From: Peptococcaceae bacterium | GTDB lineage: Bacteria > Bacillota > Peptococcia > DRI-13 > PHAD01 | Direction: 5' to 3' | Assembly: GCA_024655825.1 (NCBI GenBank) | Contig: JANLFJ010000011.1 | Location: 1 to 64,000, forward strand | DNA length: 64,000 nt | Shown: in pieces, positions 23,885 to 51,013 of the stretch | Numbering within the stretch: the stretch's first letter is position 1 | Layout of the letters: each line of letters opens with the position of its first letter | Notes under the pieces: generated by a model | What the model saw: the letters and a program-made list of their open reading frames with translations, nothing else | What the model was told of the DNA's origin: nothing | The model's database searches: none | Position numbers and translations under genes: made by a program

Positions 23885-25299
23885 TGTGGAAAGATTCTCC
23901 CTCTCAATGCCCTGATTAAAGCCCTGGCCTTATCCAGGGTTTCTTCATATTCTCGTTCGGGTTCGGAATCGGACACGATCCCTCCCCCCACCTGGAGGTA
24001 TACCTTGTTGTCTTTAAAAATCAAGGTTCTGATTACAATGTTGAGGTCAGCATCTCCGTTGAAGCCCATGTACCCGATAGAACCTGTATAAATATTTCTT
24101 TTATGGGGCTCTAATTCTTCAATGATTTCCATGGCCCGTATTTTCGGGGCTCCGGTAACAGAGCCTCCCGGAAAAGCTGCCCTCAATAAATCAATGATGT
24201 CTTTTCCTTCCTTTAGCCTGCCTTGAATGTTTCCGATAAGATGAAAAACCGTAGCGTATTCCTCGATAGTGAACAGTTCCGTTACTTTGATGCTACCCGG
24301 TATACAGACACGGCCCAAATCGTTTCTTTCCAGGTCAACAATCATTAGTAATTCAGCCTGGTCTTTTACGCTGTTGATGAGTTCTTCCTTGCTTCTCAAG
24401 TCCTCCTGCAATGTCTGTCCCCGGGGACGCGTTCCTTTTATCGGGCGGGTTTCCGCCATTCCATTCCTCAGTTTAAGAAACCGCTCAGGTGAACTGCACG
24501 CTACTGTTACATCGGAAAAATTAAGAAAACAGGCAAAGGGCGCAGGATTGATTTCTCTCAAATATCCATATATTTCAAGAGGGTTCCCCGCAAAATCGGC
24601 GCAAAACCTTTGGGAGAGATTCACCTGGTAAATGTCCCCGGCATAAATGTGCTTCAGGGCGCGCTTGACGGCTGCCAGGTAAGATTCCCTGGTAAAGTTG
24701 GAGTAAAGCCAAGTATTCTTGCGGCTCGCCGGTGTCAACTCAGGACTGCGCGCAGGGCCGGTTGCTATTTTCTTTTTGAGCCTGGATATTTTCATTTCCG
24801 CGTCTTGTAATGCTTTGCCCTGCTCCGTCTCCGGCAGGCCTGTGGCTGCGATATATGCCCGGTTTTTCAAATGGTCAATAATTACCACTGAATCATAAAA
24901 ACCAAGCACGCAGTCGGGGACAGACGGGTTGTCCATATTAATAGAAGGCAGGGTTTCAATTTGCCGGTTCAGGTCATAAGCGAAATATCCAACGCAGCCG
25001 CCCACAAACGGTAGGGTTGAAGGGTTTTTTATCTGGAATCTTCTGTAGTATTTTTCCAAAATGTCAAAAGGATTTGCCTCATAGTATCGGCTTTTATTTT
25101 CTTGAATTATTTCAACCTGTTTTCCCTTGCTTTTAAAAACTAAAAACGGCCGGCTGCCGAGAAAAGAATACTTGCCGAGCACCCCGCGAATGCCGCTGTC
25201 CAAGAAAAAACTGTAAGGCTCATCCTTGAAGATTTTGAACAATTCAAAAGGCTCAAGCCCGGTTTCGATTGGTTCTATCAATGCCTTGACTGCCTGCAC
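23881..25299 (-). CDS. pabB: Aminodeoxychorismate synthase component I
   Basis: A 472-residue chorismate-using enzyme of the TrpE/PabB family. The N-terminal half is the PabB-type lid (GKYSFLGSRPFLVF). The C-terminal chorismate-binding domain shows IYQVNLSQRF, RPIKGTRPRG, LLMIVDLERNDLGRVC, FPGGSVTGAPKIRAMEII and YTGSIGYMG. The RPIKGT lysine and the coupling to pabC favour PabB over TrpE. The start is a GTG (25297-25299) behind GGAGG. The divergent gene begins 112 bp away on the other strand. Confidence 0.9.
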   Translation of the reverse strand: MQAVKALIEPIETGLEPFELFKIFKDEPYSFFLDSGIRGVLGKYSFLGSRPFLVFKSKGKQVEIIQENKSRYYEANPFDILEKYYRRFQIKNPSTLPFVGGCVGYFAYDLNRQIETLPSINMDNPSVPDCVLGFYDSVVIIDHLKNRAYIAATGLPETEQGKALQDAEMKISRLKKKIATGPARSPELTPASRKNTWLYSNFTRESYLAAVKRALKHIYAGDIYQVNLSQRFCADFAGNPLEIYGYLREINPAPFACFLNFSDVTVACSSPERFLKLRNGMAETRPIKGTRPRGQTLQEDLRSKEELINSVKDQAELLMIVDLERNDLGRVCIPGSIKVTELFTIEEYATVFHLIGNIQGRLKEGKDIIDLLRAAFPGGSVTGAPKIRAMEIIEELEPHKRNIYTGSIGYMGFNGDADLNIVIRTLIFKDNKVYLQVGGGIVSDSEPEREYEETLDKARALIRALRGRIFPQ

Positions 25300-25411
25300 C
25301 TGCTGTTTATCCTCCGTTATCTTTTTATATTTCTGGCGGTTTTATAAAGTATTATATCATGAAAGGGAAAAGCTTATCATGTGTAGAATTTCTCTGGCGG
25401 GAGGTGAAAGC

Positions 25412-26659
25412 ATGGAGACCCTTAAGTTGAGGATCCGTTTCGAGGACCGGATCGGGCTCGTGATGGATGTTTCGGCAATCCTTTTCCACTACGGTCTTAA
25501 TATTGTCGCACTCCAGCTGATGAACAACATGATGTTTTTGGAAATTGACAAACACGGGCCGGAAACATGGAGTCCGTTAAAAAAGGACCTGGAATCCGTA
25601 CCGTATATCCTTTCGGTGGAGCAGATTCATTACATGCCCTACCAGTCGAGGGAAAACCAGATCGAGGCCATAATCAACTCCATGACGCCTGCCGAGGCGC
25701 CCCAGCATGCTTTTTCGGAAATCATCGGCCAAAGCCCTGCCATCAGGGGAGCGATAAACCTGGCCAGGCAGGTGGCTTCAACGGACTCCGCCGTTATGCT
25801 GAAGGGAGAAAGCGGCACGGGAAAAGAATTGTTTGCCAAGGCTATTCACCAGGCCAGCAAAAGGCGGGAAAAGGTTTTTGTGCCAATCAACTGCGCGGCC
25901 ATTCCGGAAAACCTCCTGGAGAGTGAGCTTTTTGGCTATATGGAAGGAGCTTTTACCGGCGCGAAAAAGGGGGGACGTGTCGGGCTTTTCCAGTTTGCCA
26001 GCGGTGGAACCATCTTTTTGGATGAAATTTCCGAGCTGTCCATGCGCCTGCAGGTGAAACTTTTAAGGGTGCTGCAGGAAAGCAGGATCAGACCGGTGGG
26101 AGCCAATGAGGAGATAGCGGTTGACTGCCGCGTGATCGCGGCGACGAACCGGAACATTGAAGAAATGGTGCAAAAAGGCCTCTTCAGGGACGACCTTTAT
26201 TACCGGCTGAACGTGATCCCCATTCAGATCCCTCCGCTTCGCCAGAGGAAGGAAGATATCAGGCTGCTGGCCGAGAATCACCTGGCCAAGTACCGCCAAA
26301 GGTCCGGGTTGGAGAAAAAACTAAGCCCGGAGGCGCTGGAAAAGCTAATTGATTATAACTGGCCCGGCAATGTGCGGGAACTTGAGAATGTCCTGGAAAG
26401 GGCGCTCCACTTGTCAGGCGGCAGGAGCATTACGGCGCGGGACGTCATTTTTGACAGCACGGTTGAAAGCGTTATCCAAAGCAGGGACTGGGAACCTGAG
26501 AGGGAGCATTTGAAATCCGCAGCGGCCCGTGCCGAAAGAGAACTTATTTTGAGCGTCTTGAAATCCCAGGGAGGGAGCATGCGGCGAGCCGCCAAGGTCC
26601 TGGGCGTTTCTCACACCACGGTGGCCAACAAGGTAAGGAAATATGGCATTGTAATATAG
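25412..26659 (+). CDS. Sigma-54-dependent activator with N-terminal ACT domain (TyrR-like)
   Basis: About 415 residues. An ACT domain (about 1-80, starting METLKLRIRFEDRIGLVMDV) is followed by a short linker and a sigma-54 AAA+ domain: Walker A GESGTGKE, the sigma-54 contact loop ELFGYMEGAFTGA, Walker B GGTIFLDEI and WPGNVRELENV. The protein ends in a TyrR-type helix-turn-helix (GGSMRRAAKVLGVSHTTVA). Unlike enteric TyrR there is no PAS domain and the GAFTGA loop is intact, so it should open sigma-54 promoters. The ATG at 25412 follows GGGAGGTG. The ald gene behind it has a -24/-12 promoter and a TyrR-like box. Confidence 0.92.
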   Translation: METLKLRIRFEDRIGLVMDVSAILFHYGLNIVALQLMNNMMFLEIDKHGPETWSPLKKDLESVPYILSVEQIHYMPYQSRENQIEAIINSMTPAEAPQHAFSEIIGQSPAIRGAINLARQVASTDSAVMLKGESGTGKELFAKAIHQASKRREKVFVPINCAAIPENLLESELFGYMEGAFTGAKKGGRVGLFQFASGGTIFLDEISELSMRLQVKLLRVLQESRIRPVGANEEIAVDCRVIAATNRNIEEMVQKGLFRDDLYYRLNVIPIQIPPLRQRKEDIRLLAENHLAKYRQRSGLEKKLSPEALEKLIDYNWPGNVRELENVLERALHLSGGRSITARDVIFDSTVESVIQSRDWEPEREHLKSAAARAERELILSVLKSQGGSMRRAAKVLGVSHTTVANKVRKYGIVI

Positions 26660-26710
26660 ATTGTATTGTTATAAAAAGGATAATAACAAAGATTCTTGAA
26701 GCGATGTAAA

Positions 26711-26754
26711 CAATACTTGCCGGCGGCAGATTTTCTTGCCGCCGGCAAGTATTG
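26711..26754. repeat. 18-bp perfect inverted repeat behind regulator gene
   Basis: CAATACTTGCCGGCGGCA and its exact complement are separated by eight bases. No clear T run follows on either side, so it may be a weak terminator of the regulator gene or a DNA site. Confidence 0.7.
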
Positions 26755-26767
26755 TATTTCCACCCGG

Positions 26768-26785
26768 TGGAAAATATTCTTTACA
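26768..26785 (+). promoter_or_regulatory. TyrR-box-like activator site
   Basis: TGGAAA-N6-TTTACA differs from the TyrR consensus TGTAAA-N6-TTTACA in one base. It lies about 64 bp upstream of the sigma-54 promoter. Half sites TGTAAA occur at 26705 and 26804. It is a likely enhancer for the ACT/AAA+ activator. Confidence 0.6.
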
Positions 26786-26848
26786 AAAAGGTTTGTCAGC
26801 TGGTGTAAAAAGTTCGATAAATCCCGGCAATATAAGGCGAAAAGAGTA

Positions 26849-26864
26849 TGGCACGCTTTTTGCA
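26849..26864 (+). promoter_or_regulatory. Sigma-54 promoter of ald
   Basis: TGGCAC-N5-TTGCA matches the -24/-12 consensus exactly. The expected transcription start is near 26876, about 74 bp before the ald ATG. It lies between a sigma-54 activator gene and ald. Confidence 0.88.
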
Positions 26865-26949
26865 ACCATATTAGCAATAAAAAGAAGGCTGGTAAATAAC
26901 TACGCCTGTCAGAAAGGCAAACGCAGTTAGAATAAGGAGGCTAAGGAAG

Positions 26950-28065
26950 ATGATCATAGGTGTGCCCAAAGAAATAAAAAACAATGAAAACAGGGTGGGC
27001 ATTACGCCGGCAGGCGTAAAGGCCTTGATAAATGCCGGCCACAAGGTTTTAATCGAAAAGAATGCCGGGGTCGGCAGCGGCATATCTGATGACGACTACG
27101 CCGGGGCCGGAGCGATTATTCTGGAAAACGCCCGGGACATTTATATGGAGGCGGAAATGATAATAAAGGTAAAGGAACCGCTTCCTCCTGAGTACAACCT
27201 CTTTAAAGAAGGCCAGGTCCTTTATGCCTACCTTCATCTTGCTCCCGAGCCGGAGCTGACCAGAGCGCTCATGGAAAAGAGAGTGGTGGCGATTGCTTAT
27301 GAAACCGTCCAGTTTCCCAACGGTCAGCTGCCCCTTTTGACGCCTATGAGCGAAGTGGCGGGAAGGATGTCGGTCCAGATAGGAGCCCATTTTTTAGAAA
27401 AGCTGTATGGCGGAAGCGGTGTGCTTTTAGGCGGCGTCCCCGGAGTGGAACCGGGATATGTCGTAATCATCGGGGGCGGCATTGTGGGGACAAACGCAGC
27501 CAGAATGGCTGCGGGTATGGGGGCCCAGGTTGCCATCATCGAAAAAAACCCCGACCGTCTGATTTATCTTGATGATTTATTTATGGGCCGGGTGAAGACG
27601 ATCATGTCCAATGCTTACAACATTGAAAAAGAGGTGGCTAAAGCCGACCTGTTGATTGGAGCGGTGCTTGTTCCGGGGGCCAGGGCGCCGAGGCTGGTAA
27701 CCGAATCCATGGTAAAGCAAATGAAGCCGGGGGCGGTTATTGTGGACGTGGCCATTGACCAGGGTGGGTCCATTGAGACCATTGACCGCGTGACCACTCA
27801 CAGCGACCCCGTTTACCTGAAACACGGCGTGCTGCATTACTCTGTGGCCAACATGCCGGGAGCGGTAGCCAGGACATCGACCTTTGCGCTGACCAATGTC
27901 ACCATACCATATGCCGTGGAGATAGCCAGCAAGGGCTGGAAGAAGGCTGCCCAGGAAAACTCCGCCCTGGCTAAAGGAGTGAACGTGGCCTGCGGCCGGA
28001 TTACTTACCAGGCGGTGGCCGAGGCTCACAACCTGGAGTACACGCCGCTTTCCCAGGTTATTTAA
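26950..28065 (+). CDS. ald: Alanine dehydrogenase
   Basis: A 371-residue NAD-dependent enzyme that interconverts L-alanine and pyruvate plus ammonia. The start [20 protein letters not shown] and the pyruvate-binding region, the nucleotide fold [22 protein letters not shown] and the stretch [13 protein letters not shown] are signatures of Ald. A GGAGG site precedes the ATG at 26950. The promoter is of the sigma-54 type. With dsdA and the alanine symporter downstream, the unit should take up alanine and D-serine and feed them to pyruvate. Confidence 0.95.
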
Positions 28066-28150
28066 GCCATGCTAATGTATTTTCAATGAAACTGGAATAT
28101 GGTAAAATGAAACAGTGATTTTCTATATTTTTCCTAAGAAGGGGTCAGTC

Positions 28151-29503
28151 TTGAAAACGACGGCAGGTAAAACAAGCGAGCAGTGGTATCTGAAGGAAAT
28201 AGCCGCCGCCCGTGAGGTTTTTTGGTTGAACCCGCGGCTTCAAAAAGGCATTTCCGATCGCAGCTTGAGATTAAACGCAAGGGATGTTCAGGATGCAGAA
28301 AGAAGGCTGCTCAGGTTTGCGCCGTACATGGCAAAAGCGTTCCCGGAGACGAAAAACGCGGGAGGTATAATTGAATCTTCCCTTGTTCCGGTTCCTAAAA
28401 TGCAAGAAGAGATTGAACGCCTTTATGGACAAGAGATTATCGGTAGGTTGTATGTAAAGTGCGACAGCCATCTTCCCGTTGCCGGTTCTATAAAAGCAAG
28501 GGGCGGAATTTATGCGGTATTAAAAATCGCCGAAGATTTGGCTGTGAATAATAAAATGTTGAAAAAAACAGATGACTATTCCGTCTTGGACAGCGATGCT
28601 TTCAAAAGATTTTTTTCGCTTCACACGATTGTCGTTGGGTCGACCGGAAACCTGGGGCTCAGTGTGGGCATAGCAGGAGCCCGGTTAGGGTTTAAGGTGA
28701 TCGTTCACATGTCCTCAGAGGCGAAAGAATGGAAAAAGGAACTGTTAAGGACCCAAGGCGTAGTTGTCGTGGAGCATGATGCAGACTACACCAGGGCCGT
28801 AGAAGAGGGCAGAAAACAGTCGCAAAAGGACCCACGCAGCTTTTTCATTGATGATGAAAACTCTCCGGACCTTTTCTTGGGGTATTCCGTTGCCGCGGGC
28901 AGGTTAGCGCGACAACTGGCTGAATTAAAGATCACTGTCGATGATGAACACCCGCTGTTTGTTTATCTTCCCTGCGGCGTCGGGGGAGGACCGGGAGGCG
29001 TGACCTTCGGCCTGAAACTTTTGTTTGAAGACAATGTTCACTGCTTTTTTGCAGAGCCGACCCATTCCCCGGCCATGTTGATAGGGCTGCTTACGGGTTT
29101 GCATGATGCTGTATCGGTGTACGACTTTGGCCTCGACAACATTACCGAGGCGGACGGCCTGGCCGTGGCAAGGGCGTCGGGATTCGTGAGCAAGATGATG
29201 GAATGCATGCTCAGCGGTGTATACACGGTGGAAGACAGCCGGCTTTATTTATTGTTGAAAACCCTGGCTGATTCAGAACGAATTTTTTTGGAGCCATCTG
29301 CACTGGCCGGGTTTTATGGTCCTGCCAGGTTGTTTTCCAGCCCAGCGGGGCGTGAATACCTGGAGCGGCATAATCTCAAAGGCCGTATGGCGAACGCCGT
29401 TCACCTTGCCTGGGCGACAGGGGGCGGCATGGTGCCGCGAGAGGTCATGGACCGCTTTTATGAAAAAGGGGAAGGAGGGAATATACGTTATCAAGCAAAA
29501 TAA
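28151..29503 (+). CDS. dsdA: D-serine dehydratase
   Basis: About 450 residues; PLP fold-type II enzyme that deaminates D-serine to pyruvate. Visible are [16 protein letters not shown] (PLP Lys), [13 protein letters not shown] (substrate loop), [15 protein letters not shown] (phosphate-binding Gly loop) and [14 protein letters not shown], all typical of DsdA. The TTG at 28151 has GAAGGGG ahead of it; a GTG at 28115 is in frame but lacks a site. It lies 85 bp behind ald and is probably in the same transcript. Confidence 0.93.
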
Positions 29504-29575
29504 AAAACAGAATTGTCCTTACATTGTAAATTATTTCAGGAAGCATGGAAATAATTGTTTAAGGAGAGTGGCTTA

Positions 29576-30958
29576 ATGGAAGCGATCGCAAGCTTTGTTG
29601 GAAAGGTAAACTCACTGGTCTGGGGACCATACATGCTGGTTCTCCTGGTAGGAACAGGGTTGTTTTTAACCATCAGGCTTAATTTTTATTCATTCAGGTA
29701 TCTTCCTTATGCTTTGAAACTGGCTTTCAGCAAACACCAGGACGAAAAATCGCAGGGTGACATCAACCATTTCCAGGCGCTGATGACCGCGCTGGCTGCG
29801 ACAATAGGGACCGGCAACATCGCCGGGGTGGCTACGGCGGTGTGCCTGGGAGGACCGGGCGCCGTGTTCTGGATGTGGGTAACAGCCCTGGTCGGCATGG
29901 CTACCAAGTATTCTGAGGCCATCCTTGCCGTAAAATACCGTATTGTTGACGAAAGAGGAGAGATGGCGGGGGGTCCCATGTATTTCCTGGAGCGGGGACT
30001 CAACATGAAATGGCTGGGGGTTCTTTTTGCCCTGTTTGGCGCGCTGGCGGGCTTTGGCATCGGAAACATGGTCCAGTCCAATTCCGTGGCTGCAGCTATC
30101 GAAACCACCTTTAAGGTTCCGCCCATCGTCTCCGGCCTTGTCCTGGCCATTTTAACAGCCCTGGTCATTCTCGGGGGCATCAAGAGCATCGGCCGTGTAA
30201 CCTCGGCGCTAGTTCCAATTATGGCGGTCTTTTATATTCTCGGTGGCCTGGTTATTATCTGCATGTACATTACAAGCCTCCCGGCGGCCATCGTTTTTAT
30301 CCTGAAAGCCGCATTTTCCGGCGCGGGACCGGTAGCCGGCGGGTTTGCCGGAGCTACCGTGGCCCAGGCTATCCGCTTTGGTGTGGCCAGAGGCGTTTTC
30401 TCCAACGAGGCCGGGTTAGGAAGCGCTCCTATCGCCGCCGCTGCCGCCAAGACGGACCACCCCGCCCGCCAGGCGCTGGTCTCGATGACCGGCACTTTCC
30501 TGGACACGATTGTCGTTTGCTCCATCACCGGCTTGGTGTTGGCCATTACCGGAATGTGGGAACAGGCCAACCCGCAAAGTCTCACCGGAGCGGCTCTTAC
30601 CACCGCCGCTTTCAGCAAGGGGCTGCCGGGGTCATGGGGCGGTATTATCGTCTCGATAGGCATTATTCTCTTTGCTTACTCCACTATTTTAGGGTGGGCC
30701 TATTATGGCGAAAAATGCGCCGAGTATTTGCTTGGTGTAAAAGCGGTGCTGCCCTACCGCTGGCTGTGGGTCATCTTCTGCGCCCTGGGCTCCGTTGCCA
30801 AGCTCTCCTTTGTTTGGGACCTTGCCGACACCTTGAACGGGCTGATGGCCGTGCCTAACCTGATCGGTTTGCTCCTGCTAAGCGGCGTGGTTGTATCGGA
30901 AACAAAGGACTTTTTCCAAACAATCTACGCCAAGGAGAAGGGACAAAAAGCGGTTTGA
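29576..30958 (+). CDS. Sodium:alanine symporter, AGCS family
   Basis: About 460 residues with around eleven membrane helices. The family signature is seen in [31 protein letters not shown] (in parts), [13 protein letters not shown], and the Na+-site region [19 protein letters not shown]. It imports alanine or glycine with sodium. The ATG at 29576 is 7 bp behind AAGGAG; an upstream TTG is ignored. Position behind ald and dsdA fits a transporter for the substrates of those enzymes. A terminator follows. Confidence 0.93.
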
Positions 30959-31005
30959 AAGCCGGAACATAAGGCCGGCAGGCGTGTAGATATGACAAAT
31001 CGCCA

Positions 31006-31044
31006 GGGCCGAACCTGGAAAACGCGGGGCGGCCCCATTTTTTT
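31006..31044 (+). terminator. Terminator after alanine symporter gene
   Basis: GGGCCG (31006-31011) pairs with CGGCCC (31030-31035) and is followed by a run of seven T. Confidence 0.65.
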
Positions 31045-31141
31045 AAACAGCGGCCTCTTGTGGGACCTTTTTTTTTGGCCGCTTTTTATATATAATTAAC
31101 TCTGTCCTGTCATGCATTAACCATCTCAAGGAGGCGGTAAT

Positions 31142-31600
31142 ATGTTACCGTTACCGACTGTTTACAAGCTGGCGGCGGCAAGCAGCGAGGGAGAAAGCCC
31201 CCTGACTGCTTTTGACCGGGCGCTCCTGAAGGCGGGAATTGGCAATGTCAATCTTGTCCGCATCAGCAGCATCTTGCCGCCTGGAGCAGTCTACAGGCCG
31301 GACATGGAGATACCGCCTGGTTCTATGGCGCCGACGGCTTACGGGCATATCATTTCCGAAAAGCCCGGCCAGGTCATTTCGGCGGCGGCAGGAGTCGGGA
31401 TAGCTGAAGATGGTTTCGGAGTGATTATGGAACACTCCGGATTCATCACCAAAGATGAAGCCGAACAGGATGTGCGACGCATGATAGAGGAGGCTTTCCG
31501 GGTGAGGGGCCTGGAACTGAAAGAAATCAGGGTGGCAGCGACCACGCACCGGGTGGATAAAGTCGCCTGCGCATTAGCGGCGGTAATACTCTGGTACTAG
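31142..31600 (+). CDS. Pyruvoyl-dependent arginine decarboxylase
   Basis: A 152-residue proenzyme that self-cleaves to beta and alpha chains and decarboxylates arginine to agmatine. The expected Ser-Ser processing site lies in NLVRISSILPPGA (about residue 44), and the downstream PPGSMAPTAYG and GVIMEHSGF are conserved. Length is typical of the archaeal/Chlamydia/clostridial type. It is followed after 14 bp by speE and then speB, giving arginine to agmatine to putrescine in one operon. An AAGGAGG site precedes the ATG. Confidence 0.92.
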   Translation: MLPLPTVYKLAAASSEGESPLTAFDRALLKAGIGNVNLVRISSILPPGAVYRPDMEIPPGSMAPTAYGHIISEKPGQVISAAAGVGIAEDGFGVIMEHSGFITKDEAEQDVRRMIEEAFRVRGLELKEIRVAATTHRVDKVACALAAVILWY

Positions 31601-34416: not shown

Positions 34417-35527
34417 GTGTGCGCGTGGCAGCGTAGTTGTCAGGTGGGTTAAAGTCCCACTGGGTCTCGGACTAGGAGACCCATATCCAAATCCGGGGGT
34501 AATGCCTCGGGGGCCGGGTAACACCCGGAAGGCAGGGCGCCCATCGCGAGGTGGGGTCCGAAGGGCTTGAGGAGAAGTACCAGGCCGTAATCAATGGGGG
34601 CTGCCCCAAAGATGAACTGGTCGGCCAAAGACGGGGCAAGGTCGAGCCTGCACTATGGAAGCGAAGGCGTTCTAGTCCACCCGTCGTACCAAGGTGTGTG
34701 CGGGCGGCATGGTACGGAAGACAACTGCGTGACCCACGGAGGCCTCGTATCGTCCGGTTGGTGGCACCGAAATGGGCCGGTGGGTAAAAATAGCCGGGAT
34801 GGAGGTAGTTTGTGCACGTCCGTCCTGTTCAGACAAGCACAATAACCGGTAAGGCATTCTATAAGGTAACCCCGAAGTGAATGCCCAAGCGATGCGAGGA
34901 GTCGGAGAATCGAATAGTACTCGAACCGGCGAACAACAGAAACGCTGGGACCGCCTGGAAGAAGGGGCGGCTCAAGGTTACCCAAAAGGCAGCCTGTGAG
35001 GGGAAGGCGATTCGCTTAACTGAGGCCGAAAACCCAGAGGGAGCAGTGAGTATGTTACAAGGGAAGGATAGTTCTCTAAGTGAAAGACCCGGAACTTGTG
35101 ACGGAGGAGACTGGTAACAATGGAGCTAGTAGGCACGACCCAAAAGACCAAGGTCCATTCACTGATCGACAAGGTGTATAACCCGACCAACCTAAGATTA
35201 GCCTGGGAGAAAGTCAGGGAGAACCGCGGAGCGGGCGGAGTTGATGCAGTAAGCATAACGGAGTTCAATGCAGTAGCGCCTGAAGAGCTAAAGGAGCTGC
35301 ACCAAGAACTAAAAACCAATACGTATAAACCCATGCCCGTACGTAGGGTCTACATACCGAAACGCGGCAAACCAAACGAAAAGCGGCCGCTAGGTATCCC
35401 GGCCATCCGCGACCGAGTTTGCCAGCAAGCACTGAAGAACCGGCTGGAACCAATCTTTGAACCAGAGTTTAATGATTGCAGTTTTGGATACAGACCCCGG
35501 CGTTCTCCCCACCATGCGCTGCGAAAA

Positions 35528-36290
35528 AGGCGTAGGCATGGCGAAAATCATGGACCCGCGGGCCTTTGCCCCTGCCGCCATGTGAAATGCCGGCGTGCCA
35601 GAGAAATCTCCTGAAGTTATGATAAACATTCGTTATCGTCATTGGGTTCCCATCCGCTGCCGGAAAGAAATACGCCTTTCCGTCCAGGAACGGATGGACT
35701 TTCCTGGCATAATCACGGCACCGCTCCGTAAGAGAGCTGGACATAGGAACCAGCCTACTGTTATCCTTCTTTGAATGGTTAATGATGAGAATCCCGTTGT
35801 CAAGATCCACATCGCCAACCTTAAGGAGTCTAGCTTCCGACACTCGCAGACCGCAGATGTATATCATCCGGAAGAACACTGGCATGATTAGGTGCCTGTC
35901 AGGACACTCGCTGCAGTAGTGGCATTTATCCGTTTCTGCAAAGAAACGTTCAAGTTCATCCTGGGTATAAATATACGGGACGTACTGTTCCTCTGTTCGA
36001 TAGTAGCCTTTCGGGATGATGTAAGCATCAAGTCCAAGGGAATCCATATATTTTCCGAACTGACGTATGATGGAAGCCCGCGAGCACTGGTTGGCCTGCG
36101 ACTCGTATGATTGCTTTTTGCCCCAGTCGAGGACGATTTCTTTCGTAAGACTATCTGCTGACGGATATTTTACCAGGGTAAACCGGTCAAAGCGCTTCAG
36201 ATGTCCAGCCTCAGAGTCGTATTTGTAGCCTATTGCCTTCTTCAGTTGCACAAAATCCTGGATGTACTTTCCAAAAGTAAAGTAGGAAGG
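35528..36290 (-). pseudogene. Tyrosine recombinase/integrase, C-terminally truncated
   Basis: On the minus strand the frame reads from about YIQDFVQLKKAIGYKYD (its first residues have no ATG; a GTG at 36251 is available). Then come GLRVSEARLLKVGDVDL (box I Arg) and GPRVHDFRHAYA (box II His-x-x-Arg). The open frame runs on into antisense of the maturase gene, so the normal end with LGH and the nucleophilic Tyr is absent. It should not cleave DNA. The right-hand neighbour fragment is a second recombinase in the same direction. Confidence 0.8.
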
Positions 36291-37318
36291 TGTGCTTCGA
36301 CCATGTATTGTTTGATCAGCTGGTTAAGATGGTCTCCTTCCGAAAATGGAAGGAACGGCGCTGTATGCCGGATAAAGATATATGGGATGTCTACCTTTGG
36401 ACGGCCGTACCGGAGATAATCAATGACTGCCCATCCTACTTCCGGGATAAGGGGAAGCACGAGCGGTTCCTTTGTCTTGGACTGCGTTAATACCAGTTTT
36501 TTCTCTTCCCAATGGAAGTTTTCCGTTTTCAGTTGTTTGATATCGGTACACCTAAGACCAAGGGAGCAGGCTAGAAGGATAATGGCATAATCACGTTTTC
36601 CCTTTGGGCTTCCACGGTCAATAGCGTTGATGAGTGCCTTAAGTTCGTCCTTTGTCCATACAGATGGTATTCGTGTTTGTTTCCTCGCCTGAACCATTGG
36701 CGTTTTTGACGCAAAATCCGTGCTGACGATTTCCCTTTCCAAAAGGAAACGGAAGAATGCTCGCAGGGAGCAGATGTTCTGCTCTACTGTTTTATAGGTA
36801 TAACCGGCAAGTGTCCGAATATATCCGTTGATTAGGTCCAGGGTAATGTCGCTGCAGTTGCTGATTCCCTGGGATGCAAGATAGTCCATGAAATACGCAG
36901 ACTGCTTCACATAGTGGTCAATAGTGACTTTTGAATAACCTTTTTCTTTACAGTACTGCTGGAAGTCATCACTGATTACGATGTAATACGCATCTGTCAG
37001 GATTTCCTTGTGCTTGTAATAGCGCCGCAGCACGGAATGGTGGAGTTGGAAGTCGCCCACCATCCGGATGACACGCAGCTCCTGAGTATCGTTCTGAGAA
37101 AGAGTTTTATCAAAATCTTTTTCCAGAATGTTAAAGTGTTTTTCAACGAAGTCGATTCCAAGTTGTTCGCTGAAGTAGTTTTCGCCGCGTGACTTGGCAA
37201 AATCCAAAAGCATCTGCCAACGGCGGCGATAAAACTTCAATGTGGCTTCTGTATAGCCAAGACGCTTCAGTTCCTGCTCAAGTTCTTCCAGCAGTTCCGG
37301 TAATGGTTTGCTCCACAT
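36242..37318 (-). pseudogene. Tyrosine recombinase/integrase, C-terminally truncated
   Basis: The start is at ATG 37318, six bases behind GGAGGA. About 357 residues include two N-terminal SAM-like core-binding parts (EQELKRLGYTEATLKFYRRR; YCKEKGYSKVTIDHYVKQ) and the catalytic domain's first half (YAIILLACSLGLRCTDIKQLK, with box I Arg). The frame ends after MVEAHLPTLL with no His-x-x-Arg or Tyr. It therefore lost roughly the last 70 residues where it abuts the second recombinase. The pair resembles the tandem recombinase sets of Firmicute mobile elements. Confidence 0.8.
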
Positions 37319-37373
37319 AATCATTCCTCCAAAATGATATTTGGGTGTTAAACCCTGCTATCATGTTGGAAGA

Positions 37374-37438
37374 TTATGCAAAGTAAATCAATAAAAAGCT
37401 CAGTAAACATCGGCATTTGAAGAATTTACTTTGCATAA
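37374..37438. repeat. 15-bp inverted repeat at right end of recombinase block
   Basis: TTATGCAAAGTAAAT (37374-37388) is exactly complementary to 37424-37438, with a 35-bp spacer. A further direct copy of CTTTGCATAA ends at 37455, precisely where the maturase reading frame resumes. It looks like the recombination end of the inserted block. Confidence 0.75.
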
Positions 37439-38228
37439 CTACTTTCTTTGCATAAGGCGGACCAATCTCACCACTGCTTATGAACATCTGCCTTGATGAA
37501 TTTGACCAAAAGATGAAGGCAACCGGGATACGAATGGTGCGATATGCCGATGATATCCTGATTTTCGGGAAAAGCCGGAAACAGGTTGGGCAATACATGG
37601 CCTATGCCATAAAGGTACTGGAAAAAGACCTGAAGCTAAAGGTGAACCGGGAAAAGACCTGCATAACCAGCGTATACCAAGGTGTGGCCTTTTTGGGGGT
37701 CAACATATACGAAAAGTGGGTGACCGTACATCCAAAAAGAATCAAGCGGTTTAAGGACAAAATCAGGAAACTGACCCAAAGGAATCAGGGAAAGAGTCTG
37801 GAGAACGTCATAAAAGAACTCAATCCCGTATTGCGCGGCTGGGGTAACTATTTCAGGATAGCTAACTGCAAGGGACTGCTGGAGGAACTGATGGGCTGGA
37901 TAAGAAGGCGGCTCCGGATGATAAAGATGAAGGAATGGAAGACATGGAAGGCGCTGCATAAGCAATTACGCCGAATGGGCTATAATGGGGACTTTGAAAA
38001 AATCTCGGTAACACGTTGGAGAAACTCAGCGAGCCCGTTAATCAGCATGGCACTTCCAAACCGATGGTTCGACACTTTGATATGACAAAGGTAAAAGTCG
38101 GGATTTTGCCTTGTTATTATGAATGATAACAACCGAGGTTTGTCAGGAGCCGTATACGAGGCCCGTACGTACGGTTCTGTGAGAGCGAAGAAGTCGGGAT
38201 TAATTTTCCCGACTTCTAGCTACTCGAT

Positions 38229-38704: not shown

Positions 38705-38720
38705 TGGCACGGTTATTGCA
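38705..38720 (+). promoter_or_regulatory. Sigma-54 promoter of acyl-CoA dehydrogenase-etf operon
   Basis: TGGCAC-N5-TTGCA is a perfect -24/-12 element, 48 bp before the ATG at 38769; the expected start of transcription is near 38732. No activator gene is adjacent. Confidence 0.88.
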
Positions 38721-49525: not shown

Positions 49526-51013
49526 ATGCTGGAGGTAAAAGGAAGTTACGACGTTATTGTTATCGGCGGAGGCATAGCAGGCGCCGCAGCGCTCAGGGAG
49601 CTTTCCAAGTATAAGCTGTCTATGGCCATGCTGGAAAAGGAAGCCGAGGTTTGCTTCGGGCAGACCAAGGGAACACACGGCGTGATCCACTGCGGGTTCC
49701 CTGGCTTTCGCTCCGTTACCCCGCTGCGGAACATCGGCGAGATCAAGGGCAGTATCATGATGGAGGAGCTGTGCCGGCAGCTTGATGTCCCCTATAAGCG
49801 GGTAGGAAAACTGTTTGTTGCTTTTGATGATGAAGATATATCCATCCTGAGGGAATATGAGTACAATGCCAAAAGAAACGGGGTGCAGGGCGTCGAATTT
49901 ATCGCTGACAGGGACAGGATCCGGCAAATGGAACCAAACATCTCCCCGGAGATAATTGCCGCCCTGTATACTCCCACTACTGCGGTAACCAGCCCTTGGG
50001 GACTTGTTCACGGGCTGGTGGAAAACGCTCTTGACAACGGGGCTCATCTTTTTGTCGATACCGAAGTGCAGGCCGTTGAAACCCTGTCCGGTGGGGATAT
50101 GCTGCTGAGGACTGGGAACGGGATTTTCCAGGCCAGGTATGTGATCAATGCAGCGGGCCTTTACGCGGACAAGGTTGCCAACATGGCGGGCGACTTCAGT
50201 TTCAAAATAAGCGGCACCAGGCAGCAGAGAATCATCATGGATAAGAAAGCGGAAGGCATAGTCAGGCATTTTGTGCGAGACCTTAGAAAAAGCGGTGACG
50301 GCGGCGACTTTGTATCGCCTACTGTTTACGGCGACATCATGGTCGGGTCGAAAGTGGAAACGATTGAAGAACTGGGGGATAACAGAACAACCAGGGAAGG
50401 ACTGGAGGAGTGGGTGATCCCGCGTTATCTGAGGCTGGTTCCCTCCCTGTCTCCTTCCATGTCGATTAAACCATTTGGCGGTTTTATCCCGAAAGCGGGG
50501 AACGACTATCACATCAAACCGGCGCCCGGCAATCACAGGTTTATCAACATGGTTTTGGGAGCGCAGGGTCTGACGGCCTCGCCGGCGATGGGAGAATACG
50601 TCGTCCAGGTGGTCCTTTCCTCCGTCGGGCTCAACCTGGAATTGAAAAAGGATTTTAACCCTTACCGGAAAGGCATTCCGCACATTTGTGAAATGGACGA
50701 TGAAGAAAAGGTGAAACTCCTGGCCAAGGACCCGAGATACGGGCATATCGTCTGCCGCTGCGAATACGTTTCGGAAGGGGAAATTGTGGAAGCGATAAGA
50801 AGGGGAGCCAGGACGCGCGACGGGGTCAAGTTCAGGACGCGTTCGGGAATGGGCAGGTGCCAGGGCGGATTTTGCGGGCCGCGGGTCTTGAAAATACTGA
50901 GCAGGGAACTGGGAATACCGTTGGAGCAGGTGACTCGCAGGGGCAAGGGCTCGGTCGAAGTCCCGTACAGGCTTAAAGAGCTGTTAATCGACGAGGGGAA
51001 GGGTGACGCCTGA
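49526..51013 (+). CDS. FAD-dependent dehydrogenase with C-terminal BFD-like [2Fe-2S] domain (GlpA-like)
   Basis: A 495-residue protein. The N-terminal FAD fold is YDVIVIGGGIAGAAALRELS, followed by a DAO/glycerol-3-phosphate dehydrogenase-like body (GTHGVIHCGF, YVINAAGLYADKVANMAG). The C-terminal part has four Cys in VCRCEYVSEGEI and GRCQGGFCGP, the BFD-like fold also present in GlpA. It probably oxidises a 2-hydroxy or similar acid together with the next two gene products. The stop overlaps the next start, so the subunits are coupled. Confidence 0.85.
   Translation: MLEVKGSYDVIVIGGGIAGAAALRELSKYKLSMAMLEKEAEVCFGQTKGTHGVIHCGFPGFRSVTPLRNIGEIKGSIMMEELCRQLDVPYKRVGKLFVAFDDEDISILREYEYNAKRNGVQGVEFIADRDRIRQMEPNISPEIIAALYTPTTAVTSPWGLVHGLVENALDNGAHLFVDTEVQAVETLSGGDMLLRTGNGIFQARYVINAAGLYADKVANMAGDFSFKISGTRQQRIIMDKKAEGIVRHFVRDLRKSGDGGDFVSPTVYGDIMVGSKVETIEELGDNRTTREGLEEWVIPRYLRLVPSLSPSMSIKPFGGFIPKAGNDYHIKPAPGNHRFINMVLGAQGLTASPAMGEYVVQVVLSSVGLNLELKKDFNPYRKGIPHICEMDDEEKVKLLAKDPRYGHIVCRCEYVSEGEIVEAIRRGARTRDGVKFRTRSGMGRCQGGFCGPRVLKILSRELGIPLEQVTRRGKGSVEVPYRLKELLIDEGKGDA

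Follow-up and report, generated by a model that had tools for sequence, protein, structure and literature searches.

The gene at 25412-26659 on the forward strand of the window, the whole 64,000-nucleotide stretch of DNA analysed here, most probably encodes a one-component TyrR-like sigma-54 enhancer-binding protein (EBP) that has an ACT domain as its only sensor and switches on ald, the gene for alanine dehydrogenase. It is very likely that this activator drives ald from a predicted sigma-54 promoter. The activator gene lies immediately upstream of the box, the promoter and ald, and the complete order on the one strand is EBP gene, hairpin, box, -24/-12, ald, dsdA and an agcS-type symporter gene. 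The domains, contact loop, rpoN, box, promoter, spacing and conservation described below are drawn from sequence and comparison.

The activator protein

The open reading frame, Pfam matches, alignments and ACT fold describe a protein of 415 residues composed of an ACT domain (residues 1-72), a linker, an AAA+ domain (104-346) and a TyrR-type helix-turn-helix, HTH_50 (367-414). Pfam Sigma54_activat (PF00158) covers residues 104-272 with an E value of 2e-71, as expected of an AAA+ domain with Walker motifs, and HTH_50 (PF18024) matches with an E value of 1e-13. The helix-turn-helix is encoded at 26510-26653 (+) and is paired with an 18-bp palindromic box; its recognition helix, SHTTVANKVRKYG, is close to that of E. 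coli TyrR, SHTAIANKLREYG. The sigma-54 contact loop GAFTGA occupies residues 179-184 (25946-25963, +) within an intact EGAFTGA at 178-184, a hallmark of sigma-54 EBPs, while the alignment shows a gap at this position in E. coli TyrR, as the original prediction had held for the enteric protein. Sigma-54 itself (rpoN) is encoded in the same genome, and a -24/-12 element stands at the presumed target.

The N-terminal domain, whose coding part is 25412-25627 (+), gives a weak Pfam ACT_4 match (E 0.006, below the cut-off). Its profile finds weak matches among PDB sequences, to formyltetrahydrofolate deformylase and others (E 0.7 or worse), so a structure model was used to settle the fold. A full-length AlphaFold model built from three sequences was poor (pLDDT 51), and the N-terminal domain alone was used. 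For residues 1-95 the model reaches a pLDDT of 85 and shows a beta-alpha-beta-beta-alpha-beta fold with a DRxGxVxD loop. Among PDB structures the model is closest to 2jhe, the N-terminal part of E. coli TyrR (E 2.9e-5), with further ACT domains ranking next, and a pairwise BLASTP comparison with E. coli TyrR 1-76 gives an E value of 1e-5. The model thus points to the N-terminal ACT domain of a TyrR-like EBP. Searching the genome contigs with the ACT alignment returned two loci, both already among those found. Pfam finds no PAS domain in the activator between ACT and AAA+, the latter beginning at residue 104. The proposal of a TyrR-like, PAS-less ACT protein with GAFTGA is therefore upheld by Pfam, the intact EGAFTGA and the match of the model to 2jhe.

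Two named families were considered and rejected. The protein scores 318 bits against the equivalog model for TyrR proper (NCBIfam PRK10820, cut-off 576) and has GAFTGA, and it scores 384 bits against PrdR (NCBIfam NF041552, cut-off 795).

Promoter, box and target genes

A pattern search places the -24/-12 promoter, TGGCACGCTTTTTGCA, at 26849-26864 (+), and the element is conserved before ald or pntA in relatives. Its form, TGGCAC-N5-TTGCA, has 2 matches in the whole window against 0.03 expected. From its position, transcription of ald is expected to start near 26875. Upstream, separated from it by 63 bp, lies the proximal 18-bp TyrR-type box TGGAAA-N6-TTTACA (26768-26785), likely the enhancer (UAS), with p 0.006 against shuffles of the same DNA and with counterparts in relatives. 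Both elements of the original prediction are thus in place, although in its right arm, TTTACA, the box is one base off the family form TGGnAA-N6-TTnCCA.

Further upstream, an imperfect distal box of uncertain status, TGTAAACAATACTTGCCG at 26705-26722, is poorer than the proximal one and overlaps a hairpin at 26710-26755 (+). The latter, a 20-bp hairpin followed by a T-rich tail (fold z = -8.7, also found by a terminator scan), is likely the terminator of the activator gene and likely insulates ald from it. The hairpin does not reach the proximal box, which is the single good one upstream of ald; EBPs often have two or three. An Rfam search of 25000-31200 gave no matches, which leaves no known riboswitch family as an alternative there. 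Box-like matches at 50019 and 50113 were discarded, both being within a coding region.

Box and -24/-12 within 45-75 bp of each other occur once in the 3.16-Mb genome, at the ald site, and not at all with the reversed control. The strict promoter form TGGCAY-N5-TTGCW has 30 genome matches against 1 for its reversed control, indicating that it marks real promoters in this genome. In the same genome (G000) this form follows within 1.4 kb, on the same strand, 16 of the 25 EBP genes, where 0.17 are expected, so that an EBP gene followed by its own promoter is the local rule. Such pairs could reveal most of the sigma-54 regulon of the genome. The window also holds a second perfect -24/-12 (TGGCACGGTTATTGCA, 38705-38720), 48 bp 5' of an acyl-CoA dehydrogenase gene (38769) with EtfB/EtfA-like genes downstream. 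Neither a TyrR-type box nor an EBP gene is nearby, suggesting that its activator is encoded elsewhere.

The presumed target, ald (26950-28065, +), is assigned by TIGR00518 with 554 bits (cut-off 392). Two further genes on the same strand may belong to its transcript: dsdA, D-serine ammonia-lyase (28151-29503; TIGR02035, 644 bits, cut-off 368), and agcS, a sodium:alanine symporter gene (29576-30958; TIGR00835). A role in D-serine breakdown, as originally proposed, looks weak, since a search of the order's 24 other genomes found no dsdA, and a sigma-A-like site may be present between ald and dsdA (28080-28108). Farther downstream, a group II intron reverse transcriptase is apparently split into 35120-35614 and 37480-38085 (region 35120-38085) by an insertion with two tyrosine-recombinase-like ORFs on the minus strand (35469-36251 and 36242-37324).

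Relatives, the gene-blind search and the proposed switch

Orthologues of the activator are 67-70% identical in three genomes of the order (L047, L048 and L049, the contig of the last ending just inside the downstream gene) and 45-49% identical in three distant genera (L050, L086/L087 and L088). None has a PAS domain, and the gene directly downstream of each is ald or pntA, the latter encoding a transhydrogenase subunit paralogous to Ald. The stretch between regulator and target gene holds, at each locus, a -24/-12 together with an 18-bp inverted repeat, the centre of the repeat being 70-83 bp from the -24 in 7 of 7 relatives examined. The repeats include TGGCAATAAAAGTTGCCA, TGGCAAAAAAAGTTTCCA, TGG(C/T)AACTATAGTTACCA and TGGTTACTAAAGTTACCA, and many relatives carry a second, distal repeat 112-173 bp from the promoter. 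By eye, the arm-internal bases tend to vary between branches in parallel with the recognition helix (SHTT-NK in some, SHSA/SHPA-KK in others).

It is extremely unlikely that the TyrR-like protein is mainly a repressor or linked to sigma-A, as in enterics, with the -24/-12 fortuitous or silent. Sigma-70 promoters are the targets of enteric TyrR (PMC1173090), but this activator retains the GAFTGA missing from E. coli TyrR in a genome that encodes rpoN, the -24/-12 is kept in relatives despite diverged flanks, and the only sigma-A-like match before ald scores 9/12 and stops 16 bp short of the ATG.

A search blind to gene information, for TGGNNA-N6-TNNCCA followed at 50-80 bp by TGGCAY-N5-TTGC in 398 Firmicutes genomes, gave 21 matches, while the reversed-pattern control gave 1. 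Six matches, each from a different family, are followed by ald, two by pntA and ten by a methionine/cystathionine gamma-lyase-like gene, together 18 of the 21; the other three (L127, L129, L130) look like chance. For thirteen of the 21, a separate protein search places a TyrR-like EBP gene no more than about 350 bp away. The family pattern misses the window itself because its box has TTTACA as right arm, and the window was judged instead by the genome search and by score. Where a locus was known from the protein search only, the box in most cases beats nearly all shuffles of the same DNA. Among ald-linked loci, L068 and L083 have no good box 40-110 bp upstream of the -24/-12, and L035 has no -24/-12 core in the region scanned. 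Taken with the relatives, the blind search gives a clearly positive answer on the conservation of box and -24/-12 upstream of ald. The ten gamma-lyase loci (L123, L124 and L131-L138), mostly beside an ACT-PAS TyrR-like EBP gene, are probably an MdeR-type regulon wider than described.

These results bear on the view that the box is terminator or leader DNA rather than an enhancer and that ald is activated from some other, distant site or by another EBP. The distal half-box does overlap the hairpin and the genome has 25 EBPs to choose from, but the proximal box is clear of the hairpin, keeps a fixed distance from the promoter in relatives with differing terminators, and is tied by the blind search to TyrR-like EBP genes. 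This makes such a role for the box very unlikely.

The seven PAS-less proteins form one clade in a tree of the AAA+-HTH part (support 88/83, or 92/82 when E. coli TyrR is in the tree). This moderate support is consistent with a single loss of PAS in the clade. PAS is detected in relatives L042, L043, L038 and L065, and the remaining regulators linked to ald or mdeA have an ACT-PAS-AAA+-HTH layout and a length of about 520 residues. One branch of ald-linked TyrR-like EBPs (L043, L045, L076, L083) has GTFTGA in place of GAFTGA and an agcS-type symporter gene beside the regulator on the opposite strand. In the PAS-less locus of G154 (L088), agcS adjoins the regulator upstream and is accompanied by a -24/-12-like site of its own (TGGTATGATTCTTGCT) with a degenerate box (L088:2900-3440), which suggests a two-target local regulon. 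Tentatively, and with slightly more doubt than confidence, a broader history can be proposed. The PAS-less branch would have arisen once in Firmicutes, with ACT alone sensing, and would control ald or its paralogue pntAB according to lineage. Nicotinamide redox balance would in this way be tied to the amino-acid level by one box that evolved in step with its regulator.

From this evidence we infer binding, activation, the ligand and the extent of the operon. Read by analogy with GcsR, a TyrR-like activator of Pseudomonas aeruginosa, binding, ACT sensing, ring formation and promoter opening should occur in the following way. Activator dimers would bind 18-bp inverted repeats, at the proximal box and perhaps at the weaker distal site at 26705. 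The ACT domain would bind an amino acid, for which L-alanine or something closely similar is the likeliest candidate. In the ligand-bound state the AAA+ ring would form and contact sigma-54 through GAFTGA, and ATP hydrolysis would then remodel RNA polymerase at the -24/-12, turning on ald and perhaps dsdA-agcS too.

L-alanine is the best guess because the target gene is ald and a symporter gene stands beside the regulator in G154. A real, though less probable, possibility is that activator and sigma-54 promoter are as described while the ACT domain senses a ligand other than alanine, such as serine or glycine, and ald is one of several targets in trans. The same regulator family serves methionine gamma-lyase-like genes and pntA in relatives, glycine is sensed by GcsR, and ald-type targets occur away from any adjacent EBP gene in G161 and G164. 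Against this possibility, box and promoter stand together only at ald in this genome, the neighbours are ald, D-serine lyase and an alanine symporter, and a symporter gene adjoins the regulator in G154. Local control of ald, probably in response to alanine, is the preferred reading.

Comparison with known systems

The original prediction saw in this arrangement a different regulatory logic. That claim is too strong, since TyrR-like sigma-54 activators with 18-bp boxes are known (GcsR, PhhR and Azospirillum brasilense TyrR) and a sigma-54 regulator of ald has already been predicted in Desulfovibrio. Among open-licence papers, what looks new is the PAS-less form, a single clade also linked to pntAB, and the broad ald/pntA/gamma-lyase signature in Firmicutes. 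The outcome is a sequence-predicted TyrR-like sigma-54 regulon of anaerobic Firmicutes, with a single box-promoter signature common to ald, pntAB and methionine gamma-lyase-like genes. It adds support to the published view that the sigma-70-type TyrR derives from a sigma-54 ancestor, and the ACT-only activator offers a simple case for asking how an ACT domain can drive an AAA+ ring when no PAS relays the signal.

A characterised parallel in mechanism is GcsR, which responds to glycine by activating an RpoN promoter from bound 18-bp repeats (PMC4894688). Both are TyrR-like sigma-54 activators of small-amino-acid catabolism, GcsR of an operon, with 18-bp inverted repeats 5' of the promoter. GcsR, however, has ACT and PAS, responds to glycine and uses TGTAACG-N4-CGTTCCG at three sites (PMC4894688), whereas the present activator is without PAS, has a TGGnAA-N6-TTnCCA-like box and is directed at ald. 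TyrR of A. brasilense, a TyrR-like protein with GAFTGA, has TyrR boxes and a -24/-12 by dadA, and its mutant fails on D-alanine as sole carbon source (PMC6375630). It differs in its ACT-PAS-AAA+-HTH layout and in serving D-alanine rather than L-alanine dehydrogenase. Pseudomonas PhhR, another TyrR homologue, likewise uses a sigma-54 promoter to activate a catabolic operon (PMC1173090), but for aromatic amino acids. E. coli TyrR shares the ACT N-terminus, the TyrR-type helix-turn-helix and an 18-bp palindrome, TGTAAA-N6-TTTACA, but has PAS, lacks GAFTGA and partners sigma-70.

Outside the named TyrR proteins, the MdeR-mdeA regulon of Clostridiales is under sigma-54 EBP control of methionine catabolism, and the survey that describes it notes ACT-domain EBPs (Nie 2019, PMC6615313). 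It is likely related to the gamma-lyase matches of the blind search; the 39 groups in the survey's Table 1 include neither ald nor pntAB (PMC6615313). DVU0569 of Desulfovibrio, a predicted sigma-54 regulator of ald (Kazakov 2015, PMC4641369), resembles our activator in having an EBP gene 5' of ald, a conserved motif and a sigma-54 promoter, and differs in phylum and in its loop, GAFTGG. That study classes its one-component sensors as mostly PAS or GAF (PMC4641369). Set beside these systems, the wiring at ald is real and local, recurs across Firmicutes and represents a variation on an already known kind of switch.
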